From a virus: a stretch of DNA of 21,708 bases. Below are positions 1-20,891 of the stretch, piece after piece; positions within the stretch are counted from its first letter, which is position 1, and every line of letters begins with the position of its first letter. The notes under the pieces are model-generated. The model did not search any database, was not told the origin of the DNA, and saw nothing but the letters and a program-made list of their open reading frames with translations. Position numbers and translations under genes: made by a program. The stretch is from IMG/VR virus record IMGVR_UViG_3300033144_002253, positions 1 through 21,708 of that record; one strand, given 5' to 3'.

Positions 1-1953
1 ATTGCCATAGTCCAGTAGGAAGAAACCCTGGCCTGCGCCACTAGCACCCGTAACCGAACCCGAGTCCCACGTACCACCGATGAATGCCATGTTGCGAGCC
101 GAATCACTGGCGTCGTTGTTGTCCTGTACGACGATAGCGAACCCGAGAATACTGTCGAACCGGGTATGTAGCGCAACGAAGTTCGTGCAACCACGTTGGA
201 ACACCATCGCGTGACGCTTGGCGTGATTGAAGTGGACGTTGTAGAACGCACCGGAATAGTCCATGCGATCAGTCAGAATCAGAATATCGTTGACCTTGTT
301 CGTGTCGTGCTTGCCGTATAGTGCGATGTTCTCCATCCGACCACGCCAGTTACTTGCTGTGGCTTCTGTCTGGATTAGCGGCCCGCCGCCATCCGACCCG
401 TTCCACGCTATACGCACCACGGGCTCAGACCCACTGGAGTTCATGCCCTCACCATTTGTCTTGACGCGCCATGTCAGTGTGGACGTTATCTGGTACGTAC
501 CGTACGGAAAGTAGACCGTCGAGGCGCGACCGTCTGGATCGTCATCTGCGGCGTTGAGCGCGTTCTGAACGGCAGTGGTAGAGTCCGAGGACCCAGTAGG
601 ATCGGCACCAAAGTCCCGCACTACGTCAATAGCTAGTGATGTATATAGGTCCTCGAATCCGGTCTTCCATGCAGATCCATTATAGGTACGCGTCTTATCG
701 TCTGTATTATCGAAGTACGTACAGCCGGTCCACGGATTCGTTGGTGCCGTAGTTGCTACAGGAAGGGCTGTACGTGGCCCCATGATGTCAGTATCACCGT
801 AGATGTAGCTCCGCATTGCTGCCGCACTCGGCGTATCAGCTATCGTATGCCCACCAAACGTAAACAGCGGGATTGTGTAGATTCCATCTGTAACGCCTGC
901 ACCCACGGCTGTCGCGGTATTGTCTATCAAGTACATACCCATCTGTGACCAGCCGAGGGTCAGGTATCGACCCGTTACCATCACGTAGTCTACCGTCTCG
1001 CTCATCTTGATAAACGCAGCAGGTGTCACGGTGGCCTCACCACCGATATGGATATTGTCGTAGCTCAGATAGACATTGGTACGGTTACCGTTCTCGCCGT
1101 AGTTATTGTTGTGACCAATCCCGATCAGTGCGCCCTCTGCGTTGCCTTCGCCCGTGTAGTACGGGTCAAGGTCAATATTTAGCTCGAAGTTGATGTTCGA
1201 TAGTACCACATGAGCAGCAGGACTTGCGGCCGTGTTCTCGTAGTCGAACCGCATAAAGCCTTGGCCATTACCGCTAGAACCCTCCGCGCCGAACGCTGCC
1301 GTGATGTCCCTGTATACGTTTAGCGTGACACCCTCAGACTGCTGTGTAGATTCGTATATTACACACCACTCCAGCATCTCATCGAACCGTGTGGCGTTGT
1401 GCATATGGAAGTTAGTGGCACCACTATGGAAGATAATGCCGTTGTTCAGGCCGTGGAACTTGCACTCACGGATATAGGACGGCATGTCCATCTTGGCATT
1501 GAACTCAATAGCGTAGTCTGGTACGTTGCCAAGTGTTCGGAATTGCAGCCGCTCGAAGGTATTATAGCCCCACACACCTTCGTCCGACGTGGACATCATC
1601 GTGCCACCAGCAGCACCGTTCCAATTCAAGCGTGTGTAGTGGATCGTATTGGCATCGTGATAGTTGCCCTTCACGTGGACATGGTTCGGTATGTCCAGTG
1701 TGCTAGATATCTTATAGTTGCCATATGGTAGATTCACTACGGACGAGCCGTCACCTGTCATAGCATCAGCCGCATCGAGTGCATTCTGGATAGCTGTGGT
1801 TGCGTCAACGGACCCAGAGGGATCAGCCCCAAAGTCACGTACTACATCAACTTCCTGCGACAGATACAACTCGTCGAAGTTATCGTTGATCTTACCACCA
1901 CCCGCTGGTAGGGTATCACCGGGGTCAATAATATCTATTACTTGTTTCGTCAT
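1..1953 (-). CDS. Tailspike/tail fibre with two pectate-lyase-type beta-helix starts (partial)
   Basis: The frame is open from the ATG at 1953 to the left edge, giving at least 651 codons with no stop, so the C-terminus lies outside the window. The start has GGGAG about 6 bases upstream. Residues 14-30 (LPAGGGKINDNFDELY) resemble the N-terminal segment common in phage fibres. Residues 36-90 carry VVRDFGADPSGSVDATTA, the signature of the pectate lyase superfamily beta-helix N-terminus used in tailspikes. The same module returns at about 443-495 (VVRDFGADPTGSSDSTTA), with 33 of 52 residues identical. Between them lies a stretch (WTGCTYFDNTDDKTRTYNGSAW) typical of fibre linkers. The likely role is receptor binding or capsule/exopolysaccharide depolymerisation at the tail tip. 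It is the last visible gene of the late operon. The fold is well supported; the substrate and enzymatic activity are unknown. Confidence 0.85.
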   Translation of the reverse strand, partial: MTKQVIDIIDPGDTLPAGGGKINDNFDELYLSQEVDVVRDFGADPSGSVDATTAIQNALDAADAMTGDGSSVVNLPYGNYKISSTLDIPNHVHVKGNYHDANTIHYTRLNWNGAAGGTMMSTSDEGVWGYNTFERLQFRTLGNVPDYAIEFNAKMDMPSYIRECKFHGLNNGIIFHSGATNFHMHNATRFDEMLEWCVIYESTQQSEGVTLNVYRDITAAFGAEGSSGNGQGFMRFDYENTAASPAAHVVLSNINFELNIDLDPYYTGEGNAEGALIGIGHNNNYGENGNRTNVYLSYDNIHIGGEATVTPAAFIKMSETVDYVMVTGRYLTLGWSQMGMYLIDNTATAVGAGVTDGIYTIPLFTFGGHTIADTPSAAAMRSYIYGDTDIMGPRTALPVATTAPTNPWTGCTYFDNTDDKTRTYNGSAWKTGFEDLYTSLAIDVVRDFGADPTGSSDSTTAVQNALNAADDDPDGRASTVYFPYGTYQITSTLTWRVKTNGEGMNSSGSEPVVRIAWNGSDGGGPLIQTEATASNWRGRMENIALYGKHDTNKVNDILILTDRMDYSGAFYNVHFNHAKRHAMVFQRGCTNFVALHTRFDSILGFAIVVQDNNDASDSARNMAFIGGTWDSGSVTGASGAGQGFFLLDYGN

Positions 1954-2426: not shown

Positions 2427-3071
2427 TTATCCAGAAATCCTACGAAGTTGCTTTTTAGTAGTCACAACCCTAACACCCAGGGTAGGACCATCGTTCTCAA
2501 ACTCTTGGGGCAGGAGCCTTGAGCGGACATAAGCCATACCCCTAGACAGCCATTCGCCCGCTCGCAGCTCCTCACCCAGATCCAACAGGGCGTGGTATGT
2601 AGAAAACTCTACAATCGCCCTGTCAAAGGTAGGGAGCAGAACTGTCTTATCACTGTTCGCACTCAGGGCAGTAGGCACCTTATTATACAGCAGGCGTAGG
2701 GTTAGTTCTTCCTCTGGCGTAGGTTGCAGCCTGAGAGTGTTCCCCTGCCTAGTCCAGTATTCGGGTGCCCCTACCTCAGTATGATCAAGAATACTCCAGA
2801 ACTGCTCCTCGGAGATTTTGATCAGTGGGTTCTCTGCTGTATCATCCTTGATAGACCTCACCCATGAGGCATCAGTAGGCAGACTGATACTGTTGGTATC
2901 AGCTACCAAGGTCGCTGTTGATAGACCATGAAGCTCAAGAAAGTCAAACGCTCCAGTGAGGTCAAAATACCCATCGTTGACCCAGGCTTCCAGTTGACCT
3001 CTAGGAAGGTCCCTGTTGCCGAGATTAAAAGCCAGTCGGGATTTGAACCCCGCGAACGTTGTGTTTCCCAT
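2427..3071 (-). CDS. Putative head-tail connector/adaptor protein
   Basis: A 214-aa mostly helical protein. Its N-terminus (FKSRLAFNLGNR, then LEAWVNDGYFDLTGAFDFLELHG) fits the pattern of phage adaptor proteins, which begin with a short helix and an amphipathic segment with W-[IV]-N. Such proteins attach below the portal and close the head. The central part (about 75-130) is beta-rich, with ISEEQFWSILDH and YWTRQGNTLRLQPTP, also a common feature of this group. The ATG overlaps the upstream stop as TAATG, suggesting translational coupling, and its own Shine-Dalgarno site is weak. Its place after the capsid genes and before tail genes agrees. The family assignment comes from pattern recognition and was not searched. 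Confidence 0.65.
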   Translation of the reverse strand: MGNTTFAGFKSRLAFNLGNRDLPRGQLEAWVNDGYFDLTGAFDFLELHGLSTATLVADTNSISLPTDASWVRSIKDDTAENPLIKISEEQFWSILDHTEVGAPEYWTRQGNTLRLQPTPEEELTLRLLYNKVPTALSANSDKTVLLPTFDRAIVEFSTYHALLDLGEELRAGEWLSRGMAYVRSRLLPQEFENDGPTLGVRVVTTKKQLRRISG

Positions 3072-3649: not shown

Positions 3650-4558
3650 TTAGGTCCCGGTGGAGCCATACCACGGCCGCCAATCCGGTGCGAGAACGCT
3701 GAACCGAGACTTCACGAAGAACATCATCACACCAGCCCTCTCGTCGAAGGTCTTACCAGTGCGAGGACGACGCCTCCAGAAGAACATCGGCCCTGCCTGC
3801 TGTCCAGGCTTGAAGGCATACCAAGAATCCGTATCAGTCAGATACTTGTATGTCTTCGGGACCATGCTAAACTCATCGCGTAGAATGTTCCGCTCGTTGT
3901 TAGCCGTAAACGGCTTGAACTCTGCGGACAAGATCTCGCGAACGATCCAGAAGTTGTTCGGATGGTGAACAACGTAGAACTGACCACTATCCATACTGAG
4001 CATCAGTCCCCTGTCGTCAGTCAGGAGCATATAGTGCTCAATAGCAGTCTGCAGCGCGGTCAGACTAATATCCGCGTTGCTTCCGTGCTGATTACTAATG
4101 TCGCTAATCCCAATACCTGGGTGAGCGGTATCAATCAGCGAGATACCATCGTAACTCAGCTGGGTCGTAAAGGCCAGGTTAAAGACACTAGCGGCCTTCT
4201 TCTCCTCAGCATCTCTGTGAGCGTCCGCCAGAAAGCGGCTACTCTTAGGCACGATCACCTTATACAGATCGTCCTCAACCATTTCTTCCGTAATCTCAAA
4301 GCCCAGGCCATACCCTCTATGGGACACCCTTGCGGTGCCAAGTGGGTAAGGCTTATCAAGAGCCAAATCTTGACCTTCAGGCTTCTCCGGCATAGTACCG
4401 AGTCCAGACGAGAACAGATAGTCCTCGTAAGCACGCTGACTCGTCTCAATCTTGAAGAATTGAGTGTACTGCGCCGGCAGATTCGGGTAGTGCTTGACGA
4501 AAGCCTTCTTCGCCCCGGGAGCAAGCCAGTTGCTCCAATCACCCCGAGCGACTGCCAT
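3650..4558 (-). CDS. Major capsid protein
   Basis: A 302-aa protein, a usual size for an HK97-fold major capsid protein lacking a cleaved domain. The ATG at 4558 has GGAGGA upstream. Recognisable stretches are an extended N-terminal region (SNWLAPGAKKAFVKHYPNLP), the E-loop-like QRAYEDYLFSSGLG, the helix FLADAHRDAEEKKAASVFN followed by DGISLIDTAHPG, and the C-terminal SRFSVLAPDWRPWYGS. This order resembles the Mu gpT-like and related capsid families. It lies after scaffold and decoration-like genes, as expected for head modules. It would form the icosahedral shell. The assignment rests on pattern and context, with good confidence. Confidence 0.85.
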   Translation of the reverse strand: MAVARGDWSNWLAPGAKKAFVKHYPNLPAQYTQFFKIETSQRAYEDYLFSSGLGTMPEKPEGQDLALDKPYPLGTARVSHRGYGLGFEITEEMVEDDLYKVIVPKSSRFLADAHRDAEEKKAASVFNLAFTTQLSYDGISLIDTAHPGIGISDISNQHGSNADISLTALQTAIEHYMLLTDDRGLMLSMDSGQFYVVHHPNNFWIVREILSAEFKPFTANNERNILRDEFSMVPKTYKYLTDTDSWYAFKPGQQAGPMFFWRRRPRTGKTFDERAGVMMFFVKSRFSVLAPDWRPWYGSTGT

Positions 4559-6234: not shown

Positions 6235-6454
6235 TTTCGTCTCCCTTTTCGACTAGATAATCGAGGTATAGGACGGCCTTATCTAGACCGTCACACTGTC
6301 CCTGCTTGAAGTGTATCCTGTCTACCTCCTTTTCACGGGCCAACGACTCTAAGATTTCCCTCCTCAGCTCCAGCAGCTGCCCGGAGAGTATTCTCCAATT
6401 CTTCGATCTGCTCAAGGATCTTAGTATCTGCAAGTCTTCTTTCGATATCTTCAT
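6209..6454 (-). CDS. Small gene overlapping the portal 3' end, 81 aa
   Basis: This frame overlaps the last 122 bases of the portal gene in a different phase and the first 26 bases of the scaffold gene. The frame stays open further upstream, but ATG 6454 is chosen because GGAGGA lies about 11 bases before it. The product (MKISKEDLQILRSLSRSKNW, later ILSGQLLELRREILESLARE and HFKQGQCDGLDKAVLYLDYLVE) is helical and charged. The last part lies mostly outside the portal gene and reads as genuine protein. Small helical proteins at the portal-scaffold junction are common in phages; their function is unknown to me. Confidence 0.65.
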   Translation of the reverse strand: MKISKEDLQILRSLSRSKNWRILSGQLLELRREILESLAREKEVDRIHFKQGQCDGLDKAVLYLDYLVEKGDENARRPDRP

Positions 6455-8312
6455 TTCCGCCGAGGTCCTCCGGAGATGGAAGTACCTTCTCAATAACAGT
6501 AAGAGTTGCGAGGGCTTCATCTGGATTCTGGATGTCGAAGCGCTCCAGAACCTGCCACAAGAAGTCCTTAGACGTTGTAGCCATGCTACCAGCGATGATA
6601 GCCATGATCTCAGGGGGCGCACCTATAGCCTCCAGTAGTGGGAAGAACTCTCGGTACATCTGAATCAGAAGGTTGAATACAGCCAGATATTGCTGGCGCT
6701 GTGCCTCCTTGTTGAGCTGACTCGTGGGTGCGGCGGCCTCAAAGCCTAGGCCCATATCCACGGTCTTGTAAGGCAGGCTGAAGATCGCATTGATTGCCTT
6801 ACCTCTGGTACCCAACCACTGCACAGGTTTGGACGGTTCTACGCCAAACTGAAAGTAGTAGATAAAGATGAAGTCTGCGATCTCCTTCAACCCAGAGCGG
6901 ATCTTCCTAATAGTCTGGTCGAATCTCTTAGCCTGTTCAGCTAGGAGCGCACTCTGGGCAGATGCTGTGGTTCGAGTGACAGGCTGTGCACCCCTCTGTG
7001 CGTCACTCACACCACTCAGACGATCAACATAGCCGCGGGCTATCTCCTCGTTCATCACGGTAGATGGATAGATCTCACCAAGCTGGAAAGGCTCGATGTC
7101 GTCCATCTCTGTGACCTCGATGATCTGACCTGCGTAGATTGGGTCACCCGGCTTCAAGGCCTGTGATAGTTTCCTGACCTTGATGGCCCTTATATTGGCT
7201 AGGGTAGCATTATCTAACCTCTGGTTGTGTACCGCAGTGATCTCCTCTTGAAGCTGCTCCAGTTGTTCACATAGCCCCTGGCCATAGAACCTGTACTCCA
7301 CAGGGAAGTATATCAGAGAGATAAATGGCCTCTTACCGTGCCAATAAGGATTATACTCCACACGCATGATTGTATTAGTGCGCATATGGTAGTATACCCT
7401 GATCTCCCACAGCTTACCTTTGCCATTTACATCGAAGGCACCCCACCACTCAAAGATCTCATACGTATCTCGAATTGTAGGTACTGCGTCCTGCGCCTCC
7501 TCATGGGATTCCAACACAGGTTCGTCTTGTAAGAGATCCCCTGTTTCAGCTAGATCCCCAGGCTCGCTAACAAGTACATCCGAGACGTTACTGAATATAC
7601 CTGCCTTGCTTCTCTGATCCAGTTCAACAGTATTCAACCTGTATCGCTTGGCTACCCACCTTGCGTCTTGTATATCCGTAGAGCTGAAAGGTATAAGGAA
7701 GTCTTGCAAAGGTACATTATAGACCGTTGGGCCTTCCCTGACTGGCCTTGTTTCCGGCCAAGCGGTCTTACCATCCCTGCTATGCATCATAACATTCCGA
7801 GAGACGCGTTCGTACGTCACCTGGAGGATAGCTGTACCATACTTCACGGCCTCAAGAATCCAGACCTCGAGGTTCTTGTCCATCTTCATATCTTCACGAG
7901 CAGCCCTGTCTAGGAACCTCTCGATAGTACCTGCAAATGTCTTCCAGCCAGCGTTATCTGTCTTAACTACCCAACGTGGCGAAGGAGTTAAGATGCTCTG
8001 TGTCAACTGGGCCGTCAACGTATTGACAGTCTCTTTGATGACAGGCACAGTTATGTCTGCGGCCCCGGCGAAGGGGAAGTCTTTAGCCTCCTCGTTACGA
8101 GGTGCATCATAGGCTTCCTGCCACCTTACCAGGTTCTCATCAAACTGACCCCTATCACCCACAGCTCTACGTATCTCATCTTCAAGATACGCCTTGAGGG
8201 CTGTCTCCCGCTCTTCCGATAGAGATATCTCCCTGACTAGAGGAGTCTCCATCTGGGAGTACATTTCCTCAGCTGCTGGTGGTGTATCTAGTACCTTAAC
8301 TGTATCAGCCAC
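6333..8312 (-). CDS. Portal protein
   Basis: A 659-aa protein in the size range of large portals of short-tailed phages. It starts at GTG 8312 with AAGG upstream. Recognisable parts are DENLVRWQEAYDAPRN and DFPFAGAADITVPVIKETVN near residues 60-95, ARWVAKRYRLNTVELDQRS in the wing region, HGKRPFISLIYFPVEYRFYG, the stem helix ISGVSDAQRGAQPV-type segment, and ASAQSALLAEQAKRFDQTIRKIRSGL. A dodecamer would form the DNA channel at one capsid vertex, where the terminase docks. It is followed by the scaffold and capsid genes as expected. Unusually it is separated from the large terminase by about 7.5 kb. Confidence 0.9.
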   Translation of the reverse strand: MADTVKVLDTPPAAEEMYSQMETPLVREISLSEERETALKAYLEDEIRRAVGDRGQFDENLVRWQEAYDAPRNEEAKDFPFAGAADITVPVIKETVNTLTAQLTQSILTPSPRWVVKTDNAGWKTFAGTIERFLDRAAREDMKMDKNLEVWILEAVKYGTAILQVTYERVSRNVMMHSRDGKTAWPETRPVREGPTVYNVPLQDFLIPFSSTDIQDARWVAKRYRLNTVELDQRSKAGIFSNVSDVLVSEPGDLAETGDLLQDEPVLESHEEAQDAVPTIRDTYEIFEWWGAFDVNGKGKLWEIRVYYHMRTNTIMRVEYNPYWHGKRPFISLIYFPVEYRFYGQGLCEQLEQLQEEITAVHNQRLDNATLANIRAIKVRKLSQALKPGDPIYAGQIIEVTEMDDIEPFQLGEIYPSTVMNEEIARGYVDRLSGVSDAQRGAQPVTRTTASAQSALLAEQAKRFDQTIRKIRSGLKEIADFIFIYYFQFGVEPSKPVQWLGTRGKAINAIFSLPYKTVDMGLGFEAAAPTSQLNKEAQRQQYLAVFNLLIQMYREFFPLLEAIGAPPEIMAIIAGSMATTSKDFLWQVLERFDIQNPDEALATLTVIEKVLPSPEDLGGNEDIERRLADTKILEQIEELENTLRAAAGAEEGNLRVVGP

Positions 8313-9075: not shown

Positions 9076-9392
9076 GGTTGTCTATCCACGATTTCGAGTT
9101 CGTGCACCTCTTCTAAGTGCCTTCCAACACCATCATCTATGACCACTTTGGCAGTATAGTACTGCCCTATCACCAGGGCGATGCCATCTTCCAAGAACTG
9201 AACGTAATCACCTTTACTTCCGGGTATATAGTCCAGTATCTTGGGCCAATCCTCACCAGATACCTGAACCCCGTCGTTGTCGTAGAACGTAACTTGCACA
9301 ACTGCGGTGTTTACGCTCTCCTCGTTTAGTACATCATACAGGTCGTTGAAATAAACCAGGTTATGCGAGTCCTTTAGCGCTACTCTGATCAT
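9072..9392 (-). CDS. Hypothetical protein, 106 aa, beta-rich
   Basis: The ATG at 9392 overlaps the upstream stop (ATGA), with AGGA 9 bases before it. The sequence alternates hydrophobic and polar residues (VQVTFYDNDGVQVSGEDWP), then GSKGDYVQFLEDGIALVIGQYYTAKVVIDDG. This resembles a small immunoglobulin-like beta sandwich, with a W-P and a Y near the strands. It has no signal peptide. Its neighbours are the V-K-V repeat protein and the small membrane protein, so it probably belongs to the surface/tail cassette between terminase and portal. Function unknown. Confidence 0.65.
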   Translation of the reverse strand: MIRVALKDSHNLVYFNDLYDVLNEESVNTAVVQVTFYDNDGVQVSGEDWPKILDYIPGSKGDYVQFLEDGIALVIGQYYTAKVVIDDGVGRHLEEVHELEIVDRQP

Positions 9393-10162
9393 TGTTCTAT
9401 ATCCTGGTTGATTCTAAACACACCTCGGAGCCTTGGTATCACTCGGAACATACCTGTAAGCTGGCCAATTAGGTACACGATTGGAGATATGATGTCCTCT
9501 TTGAATATTCCAACCTGCTCATTCACTACCTTAACTATGCCTAGGACATATACGACTGAGTGTACACTAGATTCAACAGAGCCTATGGTTTCATTCACTA
9601 CCTTGACTATCTCAGAGATGACAGTTATGACAAGCTTCACAGAAGTCTCAACTGACCTCTCAACCTCATCAATAACCTTCACAACTATTTCCTCAAGAGC
9701 ATAGACATTCCTATCATATATCTGCTGTCTCTCTTGCCTAATCCTGACACGCACCAAAACAGGCCTACCTTCTCCAGTATACTCTTCTGGTGGAGGCCAA
9801 GGTATAGGAGGTACAATCCAGGCCCATTCATGTATAACCTTAACTATAGCTTCTTCTATAACAGTAGTGATCTTGAAGTAAGCAGTCTCAGTCGACTCTA
9901 CAGCCTCATCAATGACCTTAATAAGGAAGTCACCAACACTGAGGATGGTTCTATCAAGAGTCTCACCCAGGTTCATGGCCTCATCCATAGAGAAACCATA
10001 GGCCCAGTCAAATAGATCTGTCTCGATAAAGTTCATAACCTCATTGATGGCATGAACTATATCAGCACTGAATAGGATATAGAGTGGTGTAGCCTCAGTG
10101 GGCTTTACCTGCTCATCCCTAATCCTATTAAGAGCCAGTGCTGTGTTGACTACCTCAGGCAT
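9389..10162 (-). CDS. V-K-V-x-[DN]-E repeat protein, 257 aa
   Basis: Five copies of the core [IV]-K-V-[IV]-[DHN]-E occur at residues 81, 107, 161, 186 and 210, spaced about 24-26 residues apart except across a Pro-rich insertion (VPPIPWPPPEE, about 117-127). Each core is usually followed by S-x-E-[TS] and a hydrophobic stretch such as VKLVITVIS. The pattern suggests amphipathic strands or helices in a solenoid or fibrous arrangement. No signal peptide is seen. The gene abuts the upstream stop (TAA then ATG) and overlaps the next gene by ATGA, so it is well embedded in the operon. The same core occurs in two nearby proteins. Function is not recognised; a structural or tail-associated role is inferred. 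Confidence 0.7.
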   Translation of the reverse strand: MPEVVNTALALNRIRDEQVKPTEATPLYILFSADIVHAINEVMNFIETDLFDWAYGFSMDEAMNLGETLDRTILSVGDFLIKVIDEAVESTETAYFKITTVIEEAIVKVIHEWAWIVPPIPWPPPEEYTGEGRPVLVRVRIRQERQQIYDRNVYALEEIVVKVIDEVERSVETSVKLVITVISEIVKVVNETIGSVESSVHSVVYVLGIVKVVNEQVGIFKEDIISPIVYLIGQLTGMFRVIPRLRGVFRINQDIEQ

Positions 10163-11386
10163 TTAGCACCTTACAGTCTCATTTTGAACCTTGACTATGC
10201 CTTCACCAGCTGCTAGCTCAGGTGAGATAGCTATCATAGTCCTATACTTTACATATGTTCCTGATGCAACACTAGGAGTTGCAGCGTCCCAATCAATACT
10301 GTGAGATGCAGCAGTTAGGTCTATACCCCCAAGATTAGCAACGTCCAGTACGTCATCCACATTGAAAGATCGAACATAAGCAGGCCCGCCTGTCACACCT
10401 GGAGGGCCAGGAAGATTGCTGGTTTCATCTATTCGAACCCTGCCATGCATATATCTAGAAGCAGAAAAAGGCACGTACTCAGCCTGTGCAATAATAATAG
10501 CCTTCTGTGAAGCTACTGAAGGAGTATGACTGATCGAACCTATTTCGGTATTATAATTAACGTCATTCAACTCAATTGAACCTACTGTCCATGACCAAGT
10601 TACGTCAGCAAATGCACCCAGGCGGAGAGCAAATACTCTAGATGAAAGCCTCTGATCCAGGGGGTTAGGTGTCGTATCTGTTGCTGATTGTTGAGTGAAG
10701 GTGTTGCTTACCGCACCCAGAGAGAATACTCTAGCAAGTGTTGGGTGTTGGTGCTCATCAGCCTGTTCAACTTCTCTCCTAGTATTTGGTATTGTATCGT
10801 TTGCCTCACCACTTCTCAACATACGGCACATATGATCTATTACATCTTTAGATATATTCTCGGTTTCGGTCTCAGCAGATGTTATAATGAGCCAATCTCC
10901 AACCTGAGATGGTGTAAAGGTTACAGATGCATTATTGCTCGTGGACCAAGTAGTTGAGAGTGCTTGAGTCGCCAAGACCTCATCATAGTACCAATCTGTT
11001 GAGGATAGATCATCAAGGTCTATTGCAATAAGTACCTGTTCATCTAACTCTGCAGTTCCAGTTGATATTTCTTGAAACTGAATCTGTATATCATCTCCAT
11101 TTGCGACCCACTTAGTCATAAGAAAGAAACTCTTAGAATGAGCAGAGTCAGGAGGGCTATATATATCTGTAGTACCAAGAATCTCGTTGAAGCTATGTGC
11201 TAGTCTGACTCCAATCTTCTGGGATGGATCAGTATTTCTTATGATTCCATAAGCAAGAATAAGGTACTCGTGACCGCTGGTAATATCAGTCCCATCGAAC
11301 AATCGGCAAGAGGTAGCCTGCCACCCAGATAAAGTGGTAGACTCCATAGTCAGGTATTCTTTATATGCTATGTTCATGGCAGCCAT
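10163..11386 (-). CDS. Triple-repeat beta protein, probable tail/surface protein, 407 aa
   Basis: Three divergent repeats can be seen at about 37-125, 160-258 and 290-388. Each opens with a hydrophobic strand ending in A-x-[AG] or A-E (YLILAYG, WLIITSAE, AIIIAQAE) and closes with a matching strand (VLIAIDL, RVFALRL, RTMIAIS). Repeats two and three also share a TFTPS/SHTPS lead-in. Such repeats suggest stacked beta-sandwich domains, as in fibre or receptor-binding proteins. A collagen-like bit (LPGPPGVTGGP) lies at about 325-335. The C-terminal tail VKVQNETVRC repeats the V-K-V core of the next gene product and ends in Cys. GAGGTAG precedes the start. No enzyme motif was recognised. Confidence 0.7.
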   Translation of the reverse strand: MAAMNIAYKEYLTMESTTLSGWQATSCRLFDGTDITSGHEYLILAYGIIRNTDPSQKIGVRLAHSFNEILGTTDIYSPPDSAHSKSFFLMTKWVANGDDIQIQFQEISTGTAELDEQVLIAIDLDDLSSTDWYYDEVLATQALSTTWSTSNNASVTFTPSQVGDWLIITSAETETENISKDVIDHMCRMLRSGEANDTIPNTRREVEQADEHQHPTLARVFSLGAVSNTFTQQSATDTTPNPLDQRLSSRVFALRLGAFADVTWSWTVGSIELNDVNYNTEIGSISHTPSVASQKAIIIAQAEYVPFSASRYMHGRVRIDETSNLPGPPGVTGGPAYVRSFNVDDVLDVANLGGIDLTAASHSIDWDAATPSVASGTYVKYRTMIAISPELAAGEGIVKVQNETVRC

Positions 11387-11601
11387 TACTCTACCTCAAG
11401 CACTGTAGGAGCTGACATAGTAGCTTCAACCTCGTGCAATGATTGCACATCTACAGATTGCGTAACCTCAGGCCTGCCAAACTCAACCTCAAAGTTTCCC
11501 TTGAGTTTGATATATGGCTCCACAGCGATCACGATAGTTAGTGAACTGATGAGGGCCACAACCTTCAAGGCTAGTCTAGTAACTCGCTCCTTCATCGACA
11601 T
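11386..11601 (-). CDS. Small N-terminally anchored protein, 71 aa
   Basis: A short protein with a basic N-terminus (MSMKERVTRLALK), one hydrophobic span (VVALISSLTIVIAV, about 14-27), and a Glu/Val-rich exposed tail ending LEVE. It looks like a signal-anchored or exported small protein. Two ATGs six bases apart are possible starts; the first is given. It overlaps the end of the first lyase-like gene by 10 bases, and its stop overlaps the next ATG (TAATG). It may assist the secreted neighbours, but this is inference only. Confidence 0.6.
   Translation of the reverse strand: MSMKERVTRLALKVVALISSLTIVIAVEPYIKLKGNFEVEFGRPEVTQSVDVQSLHEVEATMSAPTVLEVE
11434..11448. repeat. GTGCAATGATTGCAC palindrome inside a gene
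   Basis: This is identical over 15 bases to the palindrome at 20894-20908. Here it lies within the coding sequence of the 71-aa protein (D-V-Q-S-L-H-E). A second exact copy of a 15-base palindrome in coding DNA may be a protein-binding site or chance. Confidence 0.5.
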
Positions 11602-13499
11602 ATTGCCTGAGCTTGGTTAGTGAAGTCAGATGAACCAGATCCATCATAGGCTCGAACCATATACACCAAACCTATTTCGGAATCCTCATCGGTATAAGTT
11701 GTTATATTAGGTCCGACAGACCCAATGAGCTCTGGTGGAACCTCTGTGTCTGGGTCTTGTCTCCAGATCTCGAAGCCCAACTCCCCATCGGAGTTATCAG
11801 TCCAAGTTAGGACCTTGGGGCTCCAGTTCGTTCCGTTGAGATACTCTTCTATGTTGAAATACCCATCCCCAGATATATCTTCTTCTCTATCCAGAGCGGT
11901 ATTACTCCCACTGCACATCATCTCAAACTCGTCCGGCATACCGTCATCATCAGTATCAGCACACCAAGCAGCATAAGGAGCTAGTGGGATAGAGTCCCCT
12001 GTGTAGCCCTTCCAGCTCCCAAGCATAATTGAGTCTGCCCAGTTAACCGCATTAACTGGAACGAAGCCCAACTTGCTCCCAGGACCCACAGTAGGATCTG
12101 GTGACCTTGCCCAGTTTACACGAGATGAATCCAGGCGATCACGAATGAATACTAGCTGGCCAGCGCAGGTCAGCAACTTGTTTGCACCTACATCATCTAG
12201 GATCTCATCCCTAAGATCCTGGTCCATAGTTTCAATCTGCACAGGGTATGTTTTCCATGCTTGTCCGAGTGGTGTAGGTCTCTTGGTAGGAATATCCCAC
12301 TCAGGACTGTTGTCCCAGTCATTGTAGTTTACAGTGTCCCACCTAGTTCCTGCATCTCCATTCTCGCAGATCCCTGGAGAGTCAGTATACCTATAGCGTT
12401 CCGGAAAGAACCTACACCAAATCGTAGCGTTGGAACCGCCCCACTCTTGGTCAATATGAGTAGTAGCTACATAGTTGTTATCGTTTGTTGCGTTACCAAA
12501 GGCGTATATGGACTTCATACAGAAGCCATCACCTACCAACTCAGATTCCTGTGAGCAGGCGTCGCCAAGAGCAAAGGCCCTAGATTGCCAACCTGCCTTG
12601 CCATGCTCAACCCAGTTACTGATCCAATCAATTACAGTATTCGAGGCGGCTTGAGTATACCTGTTTCCTGTCCCACCGTAGGTCACGTTATTCGCAATGA
12701 GTAGGGACTCAGCACCCATCGTGGGCAGTCTATATCCAGGTCCCATATATAGGTTCCTGTGCGAACTGGATCGACTCACAGGTGGATCAGACCTCGGACT
12801 GCCAGAACCAGCAGTGGCTACTCTGGGTTGCCCACCTACAATAAGATTGGCACTGATAGTGTAGTCTCTAACATCCAACGCTTGGACACCTGTATAGTTA
12901 CCTCCCTGGTCTCCAGCCCAGGACATACTGTTATGATCTATAACAGCATTATAACTACCGCCCCCAAGACCTATGTTAGTACCTACACCACCCCTAAACT
13001 TGCAGTACCTAATTAGGTAGTTTCGAACAGAATTAGGCGTCCACTTACCTCTCCACATCTGGACACCCTGGCCAGGAGCTGTCTGGCAAACTATCATAGT
13101 GTTTCGTATATTATAGTTTGACAGTCTTCCATACCTCCCCATATAGATGATACCGGCTGCTGTTATCATGATAATGTTGAGGTCATTTTGGTGCAGAGAT
13201 GCCGACTCTGCGGCAGCCTTCATTGTTCCTTCCAAAGTATCATAATAGCCAAGTTGAGTCTGGGCTGCTTTATCTACCTTCCACACTCTAATCGAAGCCA
13301 GGCCATCTCTAATATCCTGCCTAACTTCATCAAACCCGTCGCAGCCTTCTCCAGTACAGCCTGGGAACATAGGCACATTAGGGCCGGCTGCAAACACTCC
13401 TACAGTTAGGTTCATAGGAGGAGAGAGAATATCTCCCCTGTGAGAGAGTCCATACACCCCTCCAAAGAAGATCAAGGCGAACAGAAGTACATACCTCAT
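11592..13499 (-). CDS. Secreted pectate-lyase-like beta-helix protein (copy 2)
   Basis: The frame extends to TTG 13505, but ATG 13499 is chosen because it makes a 4-base ATGA overlap with the upstream stop and starts a clean signal peptide (MRYVLLFALIFFGGVYG). The 635-aa product has a right-handed beta-helix region (about 40-470) with FPGCTGEGCDGF, IVCQTAPGQGVQMWRGKW, YLIRYCKFRGG and VIDHNSMSWAGDQ. These match the layout of polysaccharide lyase family 1 pectate lyases (GQTAPG, IRY, DH-S-SW). A calcium-loop segment follows at about 514-559 (DTDDDGMPDEFE, then DISGDGYFNIEEYLNGTNW), like thrombospondin-3/dockerin repeats. The last 75 residues (LTWTDNSDGELGFEIWRQ) look like a fibronectin type III domain. 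The protein is likely exported or surface-exposed. Its substrate and catalysis are unproven. Confidence 0.75.
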   Translation of the reverse strand: MRYVLLFALIFFGGVYGLSHRGDILSPPMNLTVGVFAAGPNVPMFPGCTGEGCDGFDEVRQDIRDGLASIRVWKVDKAAQTQLGYYDTLEGTMKAAAESASLHQNDLNIIMITAAGIIYMGRYGRLSNYNIRNTMIVCQTAPGQGVQMWRGKWTPNSVRNYLIRYCKFRGGVGTNIGLGGGSYNAVIDHNSMSWAGDQGGNYTGVQALDVRDYTISANLIVGGQPRVATAGSGSPRSDPPVSRSSSHRNLYMGPGYRLPTMGAESLLIANNVTYGGTGNRYTQAASNTVIDWISNWVEHGKAGWQSRAFALGDACSQESELVGDGFCMKSIYAFGNATNDNNYVATTHIDQEWGGSNATIWCRFFPERYRYTDSPGICENGDAGTRWDTVNYNDWDNSPEWDIPTKRPTPLGQAWKTYPVQIETMDQDLRDEILDDVGANKLLTCAGQLVFIRDRLDSSRVNWARSPDPTVGPGSKLGFVPVNAVNWADSIMLGSWKGYTGDSIPLAPYAAWCADTDDDGMPDEFEMMCSGSNTALDREEDISGDGYFNIEEYLNGTNWSPKVLTWTDNSDGELGFEIWRQDPDTEVPPELIGSVGPNITTYTDEDSEIGLVYMVRAYDGSGSSDFTNQAQAICR

Positions 13500-15442
13500 C
13501 TGCAACCAGCCATAGCAGAGTTTGAGAAGTCACTCTCGGTGGCTCCTGTAAATGCTCTGACCATATAAGATGCACCTACGAAGCTATTTGGATCAGTGTA
13601 GGTTGAGATATCTGGACCTACGGTATCATACAACATTGGAGGTGCCGGATCACCACCAACACCAGATAGATCCTGCTTCCATATCTCAAACCCGAGTTCA
13701 TTATCAGAGTTATCTGTCCACGTGAGGACTCTATCACCCCAGTTAGTTCCGTTGGCATACTCCTCAAGGTTTATGTAGCCATCTCCACTGATGTCTCCGT
13801 CCCATTCGAGGCTCGTTGCGTCTCCACCACAGAGAACCTCAAACGCATCTGGTAGGTCGTCACCATCTGTATCTGTCCAAGGTGTATGAGCATCTAGGCT
13901 AAAGTCTGGATAGTGGTTTATGATAAACGAATCTCTGTGCACAGAACCAGGCATATTCGTATTCGTACCTGCTCTTACGGTTCTAAATACCTCTCTGTCA
14001 ACACTGTCAGGTAAGCTATAAATCTTTCCTTCAGCATCGACCCTCATCTGGCTACCTACACTACTCAGGATGTCGTCAAATGTCTCTGGGCTCATAGGGA
14101 GAGTATCTAGAGGGAATAGATGATCTATTCTGGTTGATGTGGCTCTGTAAGTTAGGCCAGGTGACACAGAGTCATATCGATATGTAGTTATGAACCTTCC
14201 GTTTGTACCTCTCCAGATGTCATCCTGGCTCTTAGCTGTGTCACCCCAATCTCCATTGAGGTCAAGATGATTCTTGGTAACAAACAACAACCTCATTGAA
14301 TCAGGACATCCTGTACCGTAGTCATCCTCATAGCAGTGACTTAGCCACCCATCGTACTCAGAAACGATAGATACTGGATAGTGCTCTCTGCTTGCTAAAG
14401 AGGTAGTAGTATTTGGGCCCGCATCGTAGAAGTTATAGGATACATCTATCCAGAACATCTGACCAAATTGAGTTCCAGACTGACCCCAGTTATAGATATA
14501 ATTCTGAAAGACTGAGACATACTTACCGTTGGTATTTGGGTGCCTCCAGGTATTACTGTGCCCTTGGCCAGAACCAAATAGACTGTGGGCAAACGTCATG
14601 TAGTTGAAGCATGTCTCTTGTCTTGGCCAGCCACCCTGAGATGAGAGGGTCGAAGAGTCTATGAAGTCATATGCTGGGTCTAGACCAGCTTCACTATTTG
14701 CTAGTTTGCCTTTTATAGTAACCGCATTATATGTATAGCTATGATACTTACTACAAGCTGCTTCACCACTGATACTCTGTCGTATTGTATCATTAGCCAT
14801 AGCCATCATTCTCTCACCGCCATGAGAGATACTGAAGTGGTCAAAAACCAGACGGCGGACACCACTACCTATGTTAACTGTGTTACCGTTGATGTTACCA
14901 ACCATACCTCTAAGAGCAATACCTCTAATAACTATATCCTCAGAATGCTTGTACTCCAGTCTTGCCCATCTACCTAGAACATATGGCCCAGGAGCTAGTT
15001 GACCCATGATATAGAAGCCACGCATATTCTCAATACCGGGGCCTGGAGACATAAAGACGTTTCCAGAGGCCTTAATGAGGATGAAGTCTAGTTGCTTATC
15101 GACCTTGTTTCGGTCTGCATATACAGAATCAAAAGCAGCCCTAAGGCTTCCTTCTGTAGTTCCTAGGTTAGTTACAAGCAGCTTCCTGTAACCATTAGGT
15201 CTATATTGCTGCAAAGCCCCACAGCCCCAACCTTCGCATCCAGGGAAGGCAAGTATAGAGTCTGGAGTGCCTGGCCCGCTGCCCACAGAACTCACAGTAG
15301 ACATCATATAAGGCACAGGGTTAGTTATACTAGGCCTTGCTATATCCCGATCAATCTGAAGGTTGACAGGAGTAAGTACAACCTCTCCTGCCTTACCCAC
15401 AGTACCGAATAGGAGCAAACCTACTATAAGAGGCACCCTCAT
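13496..15442 (-). CDS. Secreted pectate-lyase-like beta-helix protein (copy 1)
   Basis: A 648-aa paralogue of the next gene with the same architecture. It has a signal peptide (MRVPLIVGLLLFGTVGKA, cleavage likely near residue 18), a beta-helix with FPGCEGWGCG, LLVTNLGTTEGSLRAAF, MGQLAPGPYVLGRW, IVIRGIALRG and VFDHFSISHGGER, then a calcium-loop segment at about 523-568 (DTDGDDLPDAFE, DISGDGYINLEEYANGTNW) and a fibronectin-like end (LTWTDNSDNELGFEIWKQ). The GTTEGSLRAA block is typical of family 1 pectate lyases. The helix halves have diverged much more than the C-terminal modules. The DH-S-SW-DE-type calcium site reads DHFSISHGGER, so activity may be altered. The start overlaps the upstream stop (TGATG). 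Both copies end in Cys-Arg. Confidence 0.75.
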   Translation of the reverse strand: MRVPLIVGLLLFGTVGKAGEVVLTPVNLQIDRDIARPSITNPVPYMMSTVSSVGSGPGTPDSILAFPGCEGWGCGALQQYRPNGYRKLLVTNLGTTEGSLRAAFDSVYADRNKVDKQLDFILIKASGNVFMSPGPGIENMRGFYIMGQLAPGPYVLGRWARLEYKHSEDIVIRGIALRGMVGNINGNTVNIGSGVRRLVFDHFSISHGGERMMAMANDTIRQSISGEAACSKYHSYTYNAVTIKGKLANSEAGLDPAYDFIDSSTLSSQGGWPRQETCFNYMTFAHSLFGSGQGHSNTWRHPNTNGKYVSVFQNYIYNWGQSGTQFGQMFWIDVSYNFYDAGPNTTTSLASREHYPVSIVSEYDGWLSHCYEDDYGTGCPDSMRLLFVTKNHLDLNGDWGDTAKSQDDIWRGTNGRFITTYRYDSVSPGLTYRATSTRIDHLFPLDTLPMSPETFDDILSSVGSQMRVDAEGKIYSLPDSVDREVFRTVRAGTNTNMPGSVHRDSFIINHYPDFSLDAHTPWTDTDGDDLPDAFEVLCGGDATSLEWDGDISGDGYINLEEYANGTNWGDRVLTWTDNSDNELGFEIWKQDLSGVGGDPAPPMLYDTVGPDISTYTDPNSFVGASYMVRAFTGATESDFSNSAMAGCR

Positions 15443-15624
15443 CAGTAGACCTCAAGGTCTGACGGCGGTTCCAGGCTGACGACGAAATACAGAACCAGTT
15501 CTTCGCTATTCACTTCTTCGTCTATCACCTTGACTATAAGGCCGCCAGTCACAGACTGGGTTATACCAATTCTGTGGACATAATTCTGCCCAGTGGCTTC
15601 GTCCCTACGCAGTACAGCGGGCAT
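15442..15624 (-). CDS. Small protein with V-K-V-I-D-E core, 60 aa
   Basis: The ATG at 15624 follows GAGGGG and overlaps the preceding stop (TAATG). Its stop overlaps the lyase ATG (TGATG), so it is tightly coupled on both sides. Residues 31-36 (VKVIDE), followed by EVNSEELVLYFVVSLEPP, match the repeat unit of the 257-aa protein. This suggests a single-unit relative. The N-terminus (MPAVLRRDEATGQNYVHRIG) is unrecognised. Probably a minor virion or assembly protein; function unknown. Confidence 0.6.
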   Translation of the reverse strand: MPAVLRRDEATGQNYVHRIGITQSVTGGLIVKVIDEEVNSEELVLYFVVSLEPPSDLEVY

Positions 15625-15857
15625 TATCCCCTCATCAGGCCGACGATAACAGTGGCTGTGGTATCCGTGCTCAGTACACGCTTCACTCTAAACTCCAGTA
15701 GAGTCCCAGCAGGTACAGCAGTAAGAACTGCCGAGTTACCGCCAGCGAAGGTAACCGCTAGATTCCCTACTCCACCTACCCAGACAGCATCGTAGTCATG
15801 TTCGGTAGTGTCACTGGGTGTACACAGGCTTCCGTTTCCATACGTTCTGCAGCTCAT
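15624..15857 (-). CDS. Small phage structural-type protein, 77 aa
   Basis: The body reads YDAVWVGGVGNLAVTFAGGN, then AVLTAVPAGTLLEFRVKRVLSTDTTATVIVGL. The G-G-x-G-[ND]-[LV]-A-V, V-P-A-G-T-L-L and [RK]-V-L-x-T-x-T-T-A order is a pattern I know from many small phage proteins encoded near head and tail genes, usually annotated as hypothetical or structural. The ATG at 15857 makes an ATGA overlap with the large terminase stop. It is beta-rich with no catalytic motif. Probably a minor head or tail component. Confidence 0.7.
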   Translation of the reverse strand: MSCRTYGNGSLCTPSDTTEHDYDAVWVGGVGNLAVTFAGGNSAVLTAVPAGTLLEFRVKRVLSTDTTATVIVGLMRG

Positions 15858-17488
15858 CTTAGTACCCTCACCCTTTTGTAGCCGTAGCCAGTTGCGTTAA
15901 ACTTCTTCTTCTGCTTATCCCAAATCGCCCGAATGTCGCGTTGGTGCTCTTCGTTATAGGCAATACCAAAGATCTGCAGCATCTGTGCCAGGGCGTCTAA
16001 TGCGTCACGCTTTGGGCTACGACCAATCGTGGTGTACTCGAGTGTCTCCTCGATTAGATCAGTGAACCCTTCTTGGTACCATATTTGACCTGCGCGAAAG
16101 AGAGGCTGCAGACCCTTGATACGTTCATCCTTTGTTTTCTGCGATCCCGGTTTATATGGCCTGATGGGAGGTACGGGCAAGCCCCGCAGCTCAGCTACTT
16201 GATGGAGCCAGAACTTGATTGAGGCCTGGTAGGCTACGTCCTCAATACTGAGTAGGCCAAGGTTCCACTCCTTGTCTAATTCAAAGAGTAGGTCAATAGC
16301 CTTATCAGGCGTGAAGATTCCAATTCTGGTGTCCAGTACAAAGATGTCTGTTCCGTTAGTGGGCTTTCCAAGAACAAGCATCGCAAGGCGATCAGCTCTT
16401 CGTGACTCTCCGACAGTAGGGTCGTATACCAGAATCCTATCGAGTTCGCTGATTCGAAAGGTCTCAACAACTCCTTCTGGGTTGGTTTTAGCGATGACAC
16501 TGTTCTCGGGCCCCGTAAGTTTGTAGTAACGCAGCCACTCAGGCTGGACTAGGGTTATACCTGAGGCTCTTGGATCATTAGCATATTGGGATGCATACCT
16601 ATGTGGATTCTCACGCAGCATCCGGTTGAAGAACTCTTTGCTGAACATTTCGGGAAAGACGGCTTCGCCGTTCTCCATCGCCTTGCGGCGATATATAAGC
16701 AACTCGCCTACTTTCTCTGCATGAGGTCCGATCTCTATGGGCTTATCTTTGTGGCCGTAAAACTGTTCTATGGCTGCATATACATCGTTTAGGCGCCAGC
16801 GCGTACCGACGAAGTCTATCCGATCTTCAATAGGCGAGATGAGTAGGGACTCTAAGCCTGAGGCCCACTCGATTGTTTTCTCCATCTCAATTTCTGAGTT
16901 AAGTTCCTTCTCGCCGATAATATCGTCGCCGATGATGCGGTTATAGTGGCGGCTAGCAACAGCGCCCTTAGCACCGATAGTGTCAATCGTGGGCTCACGG
17001 AACATGACCTCTCGGGGTACTTCTAACTCGTCCGCGTTCCAACGCGCTTTAGTGATCTCAGGGGGAATGATCTCTGGATAGAGCCACCTGAACATCTTGT
17101 TCATAATGAAGTGCTTTTGGATCTCCAGTAAGAAGCGCTTCGCGTTGGTACTGCTGCTAGCCACCAAAAGGATTCGGATGTTTGGATCGAGAGTTATGTC
17201 CTGCATCGAACTCCCGATGGTGATAATTGTAGTCTTGAAGTGAGAGCGCGGCATCTGTATCATGCGCCGCAACCAGGCACGAGTTTGATCAAGAAAGGTA
17301 CATAGTTCTCCGTGCATATCAGGAGATAAGCGGTCGTAGCCTAGGACGCCCTTGACAAAGAAGAACAGTTCTTCCTTGCCCCTAGCTGCTAGTTCTAGAC
17401 GAACCTTGTCTGATGCACCCGAAGGTACGTCAGCACCAAAGCTAGTCTTCGACGATGGTGTAGTCAGCGTCGATGATATCTCTTGCAC
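15854..17488 (-). CDS. terL: Terminase large subunit
   Basis: A 544-aa packaging motor ATPase/nuclease. The N-terminal ATPase shows the variant Walker A PRSHFKTT (80-87), Walker B RIIGDD (184-189) with a following acidic residue (E193), and the coupling motif VGTRWRLND (228-236). The C-terminal RNase H-like nuclease shows VYDPTVGES (D356), SIEDVAYQ (E416/D417) and KRDALDAL (D495, D498), the usual acidic triad. It cuts concatemers and pumps DNA through the portal. GTG 17488 overlaps the small subunit gene by 47 bases and has only a weak ribosome site, so translational coupling or a start slightly downstream is possible. The identity is secure. Confidence 0.95.
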   Translation of the reverse strand: MQEISSTLTTPSSKTSFGADVPSGASDKVRLELAARGKEELFFFVKGVLGYDRLSPDMHGELCTFLDQTRAWLRRMIQMPRSHFKTTIITIGSSMQDITLDPNIRILLVASSSTNAKRFLLEIQKHFIMNKMFRWLYPEIIPPEITKARWNADELEVPREVMFREPTIDTIGAKGAVASRHYNRIIGDDIIGEKELNSEIEMEKTIEWASGLESLLISPIEDRIDFVGTRWRLNDVYAAIEQFYGHKDKPIEIGPHAEKVGELLIYRRKAMENGEAVFPEMFSKEFFNRMLRENPHRYASQYANDPRASGITLVQPEWLRYYKLTGPENSVIAKTNPEGVVETFRISELDRILVYDPTVGESRRADRLAMLVLGKPTNGTDIFVLDTRIGIFTPDKAIDLLFELDKEWNLGLLSIEDVAYQASIKFWLHQVAELRGLPVPPIRPYKPGSQKTKDERIKGLQPLFRAGQIWYQEGFTDLIEETLEYTTIGRSPKRDALDALAQMLQIFGIAYNEEHQRDIRAIWDKQKKKFNATGYGYKRVRVLR

Positions 17489-17915
17489 TATTACTCGCCA
17501 TTAAGAGTTTCTCTGCTGCCTCAGGGGAGATAACTGAATGAGCTTCAATACGCTTGTCGATCTTGCCGTACCCTGCTCGATCTAGGATTGAGAACGCCGA
17601 CCGCTGGGCAGCATTCTCGTCATCAGAGAAGCGCATAATATCAGTGACTTTATCGAGTGCTTCCCCACTAAGGTGTTCAAGCCTGAGAGCCACGTTGTCA
17701 ATTTTATCAGTTATATGGCGTCTGGTCTCTACGATTATTTCCTGTGCCCGAGGGTCGTTCCTGATAACTGAGACACGCTCTTTATTATAGCCCATCATCT
17801 CAGCGATCTCGTAATTCTTCAGACCAGCAGCGCAGAGTTTCGCTACCTGGATATGTCTAGAATCGAAGACATCTGGTGCATAGTACTTCAGTTCGCCGTT
17901 ACCACGCTTGCCCAT
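17442..17915 (-). CDS. terS: Terminase small subunit
   Basis: The frame extends to 17951, but ATG 17915 with GAGGAG five bases upstream is the clear start, giving 157 aa. Residues about 19-52 (HIQVAKLCAAGLKNYEIAEMMG, then KERVSVIRNDP) form a helix-turn-helix typical of terminase small subunits that recognise the packaging site. The rest is helical (IVETRRHITDKIDNVALRLEHL), consistent with the oligomerisation region, and ends in an acidic tail (DIIDADYTIVED) that may contact the large subunit. It is directly followed by, and overlaps, the large subunit gene. A large hairpin lies just before its ribosome site. Confidence 0.85.
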   Translation of the reverse strand: MGKRGNGELKYYAPDVFDSRHIQVAKLCAAGLKNYEIAEMMGYNKERVSVIRNDPRAQEIIVETRRHITDKIDNVALRLEHLSGEALDKVTDIMRFSDDENAAQRSAFSILDRAGYGKIDKRIEAHSVISPEAAEKLLMASNSARDIIDADYTIVED

Positions 17916-17928
17916 AGTTCTCCTCAAG

Positions 17929-17974
17929 TTACGATGACAGCCGCACCACAAGACGGCTGTAATTTACATCGTAA
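17929..17974 (-). promoter_or_regulatory. Two-tier hairpin in the terS leader
   Basis: Outer arms TTACGATG and CATCGTAA (8 bp) and inner arms ACAGCCG and CGGCTGT (7 bp) are all perfect, with a 6-base one-sided bulge and a 10-base loop. In the leftward mRNA the structure ends a few bases before the GAGGAG of terS. No T-run follows, so it is not a typical terminator. The 17916-18117 gap holds no other gene that I can support. It may be an mRNA element, or on DNA a binding site near the packaging genes. Confidence 0.65.
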
Positions 17975-20362: not shown

Positions 20363-20426
20363 TTGCACACCTATTTGACGTGTTACAATTAGAAGGTTGA
20401 CTTTATGGTATGGTGCGGTTATATTG
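20363..20426 (+). promoter_or_regulatory. Early promoter module, copy 1
   Basis: TTGACT (20397-20402), 17 bases, then TATATT (20420-20425) is a good sigma-70 promoter. Upstream lie GTGTTACAATTAGAAGGTTG (20380-20399) and TTGCAC (20363). All parts recur with identical spacing at 20903-20966. It drives the HNH-like gene at 20463. Confidence 0.7.
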
Positions 20427-20462
20427 AATATGTTGCAGGCTCACACATTCAAGGAGGTATGT

Positions 20463-20891
20463 ATGTCCAGAGAGAGATGGGTGTATCAAGGTAAGACGGA
20501 GTACCAGAAGGTGATGGAGAAGATAAGACAGGATGTGGGTCCATTAGGTTGTTGGTTATGGACAGGTATGGTTGATGGTAATGGCTATCCGCAAATGAGC
20601 GTGAAGAGGAAAGGGAAGTGGACAGCTAGGGCTCCATATCGCATAGTGGCAGAGCATGAGTTTCTCAATGGTGAGAGACTCGGAAGGGACGATCATGTAT
20701 ACCAGAGGTGTCATGTAAAGAGATGCTGTCGGCCTGAGCATTTAGAGATGAATAAAAAGAGGCCACCAGATAAGCACCATTTGCTTGTGGCTATGAAAGC
20801 AGACGGTCACAGTTATGTGGATTGTATCGCTATGATGGTACTGTGGGGAGATGTGGATCAGAGTGATGAGGCACAAGCTGAGTTGAGTTAG
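20463..20891 (+). CDS. HNH-like zinc-loop protein, 142 aa
   Basis: The frame opens at 20397, but ATG 20463 with AAGGAGGT just upstream is the start. The pattern C30-WLWTG, GNGY (39-42), APYRIVAEHEFLNGE (57-71) and C83-x4-C88-x4-H93 (RCHVKRCCRPEHLEM) matches the zinc-binding loop of His-Me finger (HNH) endonucleases. The family usually has H-x-C-x4-C-x-N-P-x-H-L. Here the catalytic His position is Gln81, and the Asn is Arg90, so cleavage may be lost or changed. The C-terminus (MKADGHSYVDCIAMM) resembles a worn helix-turn-helix. It may be a free-standing homing nuclease relic or a DNA-binding regulator. It is transcribed from a recognised promoter module. Confidence 0.75.
   Translation: MSRERWVYQGKTEYQKVMEKIRQDVGPLGCWLWTGMVDGNGYPQMSVKRKGKWTARAPYRIVAEHEFLNGERLGRDDHVYQRCHVKRCCRPEHLEMNKKRPPDKHHLLVAMKADGHSYVDCIAMMVLWGDVDQSDEAQAELS

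Follow-up and report, generated by a model that had tools for sequence, protein, structure and literature searches.

In PL1 lyases a conserved Asp acts as Ca2+ ligand and an Arg as the base. Described members of this fold include the PL1 pectate lyase PfPL1 (PDB 9buj) of the bacterium Pseudoalteromonas fuliginea and VexL (PDB 6fi2), a Vi-antigen depolymerase (PMC9597891). In phages, characterised depolymerases are mostly tail-bound, with excess tailspike acting at a distance also described (PMC9917116), and some endolysins, among them Lys44 of fOg44, are known to be exported by signal peptide (PMC6116005). A search of the open-licence literature found viral pectate lyases but no work on paired PL1 enzymes with signal peptides encoded in late operons.

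The analysed window, a linear viral contig of 21.7 kb, belongs to a podovirus-like phage. Its minus-strand genes from about 19.1 kb down to position 1 form one head-tail operon in the order TerS, TerL, two small ORFs, genes B and A, a 71-aa ORF, 407-aa and 257-aa ORFs, 106-aa and 190-aa ORFs, SU10-type portal, major capsid protein (MCP), SU10-type adaptor and tailspike. The placing of the lyase-like pair in a virion operon, as proposed in the preliminary description, was therefore borne out, since TerS and TerL lie on one side of it and portal, MCP and adaptor on the other, all on its strand:

17442-17951, minus strand, TerS
15854-17488, minus strand, terminase large subunit (TerL; phrog_38, 1e-64), upstream border of the slot holding the pair
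15442-15624, minus strand, 60-aa ORF with an IVKVIDE tag, overlapping the B start
13496-15442, minus strand, gene B, 648-aa signal-peptide PL1-type lyase with TSP3/dockerin-like segment and FN3
11592-13499, minus strand, gene A, 635-aa paralogue with the same layout as B
11386-11601, minus strand, 71-aa ORF with an N-terminal signal-peptide/anchor-like segment, overlapping the A end
6333-8312, minus strand, SU10-type portal (PF23899, 1.5e-34), downstream border of the slot
3650-4558, minus strand, major capsid protein
2427-3071, minus strand, SU10-type adaptor
1-1953, minus strand, tailspike with two Pect-lyase_RHGA-type stretches and, by the heuristic, no signal peptide

The tailspike gene extends past the contig end and is likely the virion's own depolymerase, separate from A and B. 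An HNH-endonuclease-like ORF lies upstream of the operon on the opposite strand (20397-20891, plus), and neither Rfam nor tRNA features were found in the window. GC3 is lower in the cargo genes between TerL and portal (B 0.40, A 0.45, 407-aa ORF 0.33, 257-aa ORF 0.42) than in TerL, portal and MCP (0.54-0.63), suggesting that 9389-15624 is a swap-prone region.

Genes A and B are two long intact ORFs that are translationally coupled, B overlapping its upstream neighbour by 1 base and A overlapping B by 4 (ATGA) and the following ORF by 10; the start of A is most likely the ATG at 13499, within the overlap with the B stop, and not the TTG at 13505. They are paralogues, as first described (BLASTP 197 bits, E 4e-59, 29% identity over full length), and are laid out alike, with a signal peptide ahead of the PL1-type helix and a post-helix region that leads to the DxDxDG segment and a single FN3 domain:

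15389-15442, minus strand, B signal peptide, MRVPLIVGLLLFGTVGKA followed by GE (cleavage site guessed; the heuristic cut 2 residues earlier)
14093-15259, minus strand, B PL1-type beta-helix region (PL1 profile, AlphaFold model, Foldseek)
13751-13882, minus strand, B DxDxDG segment, bacterial TSP3/dockerin-like
13499-13750, minus strand, B FN3 domain
13449-13499, minus strand, A signal peptide, MRYVLLFALIFFGGVYG followed by LS (heuristic)
12240-13376, minus strand, A PL1-type beta-helix region (PL1 profile, AlphaFold model, Foldseek)
11832-11966, minus strand, A DxDxDG segment, bacterial TSP3/dockerin-like
11595-11831, minus strand, A FN3 domain

Identity between the two falls from 40% in the signal/linker to 29% in the PL1 helix and 23% in the post-helix region, and stands at 57% in the DxDxDG segment and 61% in FN3, in agreement with the earlier observations of a common C-terminal arrangement with DxDxDG loops and FN3-like ends and of helices more diverged than the ends. 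The FN3 domain of A gave weak Foldseek matches to FN3 domains (probability 1.0, E about 0.1). Over the last 124 aligned residues, which are about 60% identical, third codon positions agree at only 42%, and the same codon is used at 31 of 74 identical residues of the C-terminal module; consequently, the resemblance of the ends reflects an old duplication or exchange and not a recent one.

No PL1 match above threshold was returned by Pfam or PHROGs searches with either protein, both staying below the gathering score of PF00544, for which a Bacteroides-type homologue also reaches only 19.5 bits against a cut-off of 24; PelZ was weakly matched in A (NCBIfam). A PL1 profile built from homologues, on the other hand, scored 132 bits with B and 109 bits with A. 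AlphaFold2 models built with 42-row alignments have moderate confidence (pLDDT 70 and pTM 0.75 each) and predict a right-handed parallel beta-helix that comes closest to pectate lyases. PfPL1 was the top PDB match of both models in Foldseek (E 4.6e-10 for B and 1.8e-9 for A), followed by VexL (8.9e-6 for B, 8.4e-5 for A) and, for A, PelA (1.5e-5), phage tailspikes following far behind these and Pel-type lyases. Among viral predicted structures, the only matches of A at E < 0.001 were an unnamed protein of 333 aa and one named as putative pectate lyase, from an Aureococcus virus; tailspikes were matched only at E > 0.02. Neither a phage tailspike-type helix nor a virion-attachment N-terminus was found in A or B by Pfam, PHROGs or Foldseek. 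The family 1 lyase-like helices of the preliminary description are thus supported by both profile and models, and the PL1 active-site residues were located by alignment:

14543-14545, minus strand, B catalytic Arg R300, in the PL1 RxP motif
12729-12731, minus strand, A catalytic Arg R257
14837-14842, minus strand, B invariant Asp-His, D201-H202
12933-12938, minus strand, A invariant Asp-His, D188-H189
14882-14884, minus strand, B N187, in the conserved metal-ligand Asp column
12975-12977, minus strand, A N175, the residue nearest to that column (alignment gap; alternative T174)

The RxP Arg is invariant in 175/175 homologues and is kept in A and B, where R257 and R300 are the equivalents of R218 in PelC numbering; the PDB title of 2ewe names R218K. 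The Asp-His pair (Asp 94%, His 98% across the 175 homologues) is likewise kept in both. A lack of catalytic residues in both proteins, named beforehand as an outcome that would speak against lyases, was consequently not what the comparison found. The metal-column Asp, one strand before Asp-His and present in 80% of homologues, is replaced by Asn in B and by Asn or Thr in A; Asn also occupies this column in a tandem lyase pair of a Gemmatimonadota MAG (L069), and in the alignment VexL has no Asp there. The initial label of pectate-lyase-like therefore stands as far as the PL1 type is concerned and not for ordinary pectate lyases, the usual metal ligand being lost from both proteins. Since this column lacks its Asp, A and B are, as far as sequence and models tell, atypical PL1-like proteins rather than canonical PL1 pectate lyases.

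Compared with described enzymes, the pair shares with PfPL1 the fold, the Arg, the Asp-His and N-terminal motifs of the AFPGxEG/GQTAPG type, whereas PfPL1 keeps the metal-ligand Asp (AEDSMSV), is not a phage gene and lacks the added FN3. VexL has a PL1-like helix, an RNP Arg motif and a metal column without Asp as A and B do, but its alignment stops before the TSP3/FN3 ends. By alignment, A and B resemble VexL and the lyases of bacterial exopolysaccharide loci. The pectate lyases of PHROG 27797 are also phage-encoded PL1 proteins, and another viral lyase (L003) matches this family at 1e-40, whereas A matches it only at E 0.013 and B not at all. Tailspike depolymerases of the Pect-lyase_RHGA type are beta-helical with a polysaccharide-cutting role, yet they are virion-bound, have no signal peptide and belong to another helix family. 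Lys44 would be comparable as a phage enzyme with host Sec export, which is predicted for A and B, although such endolysins target peptidoglycan, for lysis.

A home-made heuristic was used to call signal peptides. By this heuristic both paralogues show an n/h/c layout with small residues at -1/-3, consistent with the signal peptides first noticed, and among the 23 genes of the window only A, B and the 71-aa ORF have signal-peptide-like starts, the core virion genes having none. It is unlikely, in spite of their place among structural and decoration genes with overlaps of 1-10 bases, that A and B belong to the virion as decoration proteins or depolymerases, with an N-terminal hydrophobic stretch that is a buried helix. 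This possibility finds a parallel in MW202554, where in a similar operon a signal-peptide stretch lies ahead of a 197-aa protein that looks like a jelly roll (fold by eye), but the restriction of the classic signal layout to three ORFs, the separate tailspike in the window and the nearest folds, which are secreted or periplasmic bacterial lyases, all argue against it. So does the distribution of the IVKVx[DN]E tag, which is carried by likely virion cargo neighbours and absent from A, B and the export-type protein of a syntenic contig (L068). Export by the host is likely judging from the sequences. Between the host-exported and virion locations that had both been put forward, export is the best reading given the layout of a bacterial secreted enzyme. 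The analysis establishes gene structure, homology, predicted fold, the presence of Arg and Asp-His and the place in the late operon; actual export, with catalysis, substrate and benefit, is what we infer.

The tag in its wider form, [ILV][VIL]KVx[DN]E, turns up in a number of non-exported cargo or decoration proteins of the window (15442-15624; 10163-11386, at the C-terminus; 9389-10162, in 4 copies) and of L068 (3450-3863; 5926-6978, at the C-terminus; 6978-7691), including the C-terminus of a swapped cargo protein, and was found in only 2/3533 background ORFs; it may be a virion docking tag. A C-terminal 'P..LxV' motif, considered as a shared mark of export-type proteins, was not enriched (13/124 vs 77/874) and was discarded.

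The closest bacterial match is the tandem pair of the Gemmatimonadota MAG (B at 8e-34), followed by L070 and L071. The pair in L069 adjoins genes for an acetyltransferase, an aminotransferase and a WecB-type epimerase, L071 lies near an EPS sugar-phosphate transferase (EPS_sugtrans) and a glycosyltransferase, and a tree neighbour (L077) near an XrtA/EPS-type amidotransferase gene; exopolysaccharide is therefore the suggested substrate class, as all three lie by polysaccharide-synthesis-type genes. In the full tree A and B group with Gemmatimonadota-type lyases (98*). When a single paralogue is included, B stays there and A does not, and the very long branches make the placement unsure. Acquisition from a bacterium, suggested at the outset, is plausible, but with at most about 29% identity to any sequence found and such tree positions no specific donor is claimed. 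Gemmatimonadota genomes gave few lyase-region matches to B, and FN3-only matches in others. The sole annotated-phage match to B, MT835984, was rejected as phage: this unverified, unannotated record (MT835984.1), filed among phages, has the look of Bacteroides-type chromosomal DNA and carries two PL1 genes in tandem.

Taken together, A and B are read, with a probability of about 0.6, as late-expressed, host-exported PL1-superfamily lyases directed against host or neighbour exopolysaccharide. They would be made late, together with the virion genes, and exported by the infected host through Sec, to function outside the cytoplasm as beta-eliminating polysaccharide lyases in which the conserved Arg would be the base acting on a uronate-containing polymer, with the TSP3-like segment and FN3 as calcium-stabilised and spacer/binding modules. 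This would strip away the polymer that surrounds infected cells and favour escape and spread of the progeny, and the tandem divergent copies might cover two linkages or polymers, two different substrates being possible. Because the usual metal-ligand Asp is lost, the substrate would be exopolysaccharide or capsule, as with VexL, rather than ordinary pectate, for which A and B are probably not specific.

That the two genes are true auxiliary metabolic genes, for exported lyases of pectate or plant polymers that let the host live on environmental pectin, is quite improbable: the PL1 fold and catalytic Arg are compatible with it, PHROG 27797 is classed under auxiliary genes and mangrove-soil viral carbohydrate genes include pectate lyases (PMC6460857), but the canonical metal-site Asp is lost from both proteins, the nearest bacterial relatives adjoin polysaccharide-synthesis genes, and expression with late virion genes would leave little time for feeding. 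The metal-site substitution could mean loss of activity, and with the long branches and the adhesion-type FN3 and TSP3 modules it would suit exported binding proteins that have lost catalysis and coat the cell as surface lectins or exclusion factors, but this is very improbable, as Arg and Asp-His are kept in both despite 29% helix identity and VexL, also without that Asp by alignment, is used as a Vi depolymerase (PMC9597891). Lyase activity of A and B is considered probable.

As exopolysaccharide lyases, A and B would be EPS-lyase candidates with an altered metal site, in a predicted exported pair that exists alongside a tailspike. If late operons do encode dedicated exported lyases, infected cells would remodel their surroundings before lysis, with a bearing on biofilm dispersal, neighbour protection and the reading of viral 'auxiliary' CAZymes. 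The pair is a clear example of a phage-borne CAZyme gene kind already known from metagenomes, rather than an entirely new system.

Scanning viral contigs for a PL1 motif yielded 62 loci. Of 48 de-replicated viral contigs with PL1 lyases, 23 carry a lyase with a signal-peptide-like N-terminus (heuristic; a few of the calls look doubtful). Within 2.5 kb of viral PL1 genes, further signal-peptide genes are overrepresented (37/225 nearby against 13/261 farther away; Fisher p 4e-5, some of the contigs tested being possibly bacterial), and in phage-marked contigs only the counts are 7/44 vs 2/53 (p 0.07). The view that signal peptides on phage enzymes of this kind are unusual thus did not hold among uncultured phages. 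Viral contigs L053-L056 and L059 encode PL1-domain proteins of 690-1650 aa in tandem, which lack signal peptides and have C-terminal tails similar within each position.

Scans of viral contigs with single proteins, with TerL and with DNA patterns found no syntenic relative beyond L068 (TerL 48%, portal 50%), in whose TerL-portal slot B and A are replaced by an unrelated 688-aa signal-peptide protein with no family assigned. Two other contigs (L044, L048) have signal-peptide genes between TerL and PL1, and in L048 a portal-like gene comes after PL1 (portal by eye). In the podovirus MW202554, an annotated complete genome, several genes in a row after the portal have signal-peptide-like starts: the heuristic flags three, and inspection by eye adds a GH28-type protein. 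From these individual cases and the window it is tentatively proposed, as a possibility that remains doubtful, that the TerL-portal or just post-portal stretch of diverse podo-like phages is a recurrent slot for Sec-exported, largely carbohydrate-active proteins, co-expressed with capsid genes and distinct from IVKVx[DN]E-tagged virion cargo, which would form an exoenzyme kit for the dying host.

In MW202554.1 the terminase large subunit (32005-34542) is annotated in two pieces, the first with an apparent intein-type insertion between terminase parts (by eye). Two viral contigs encode small signal-peptide-like proteins that consist mainly of one FN3 domain of the A/B kind (L160, 310-753; L161, 7847-8347).
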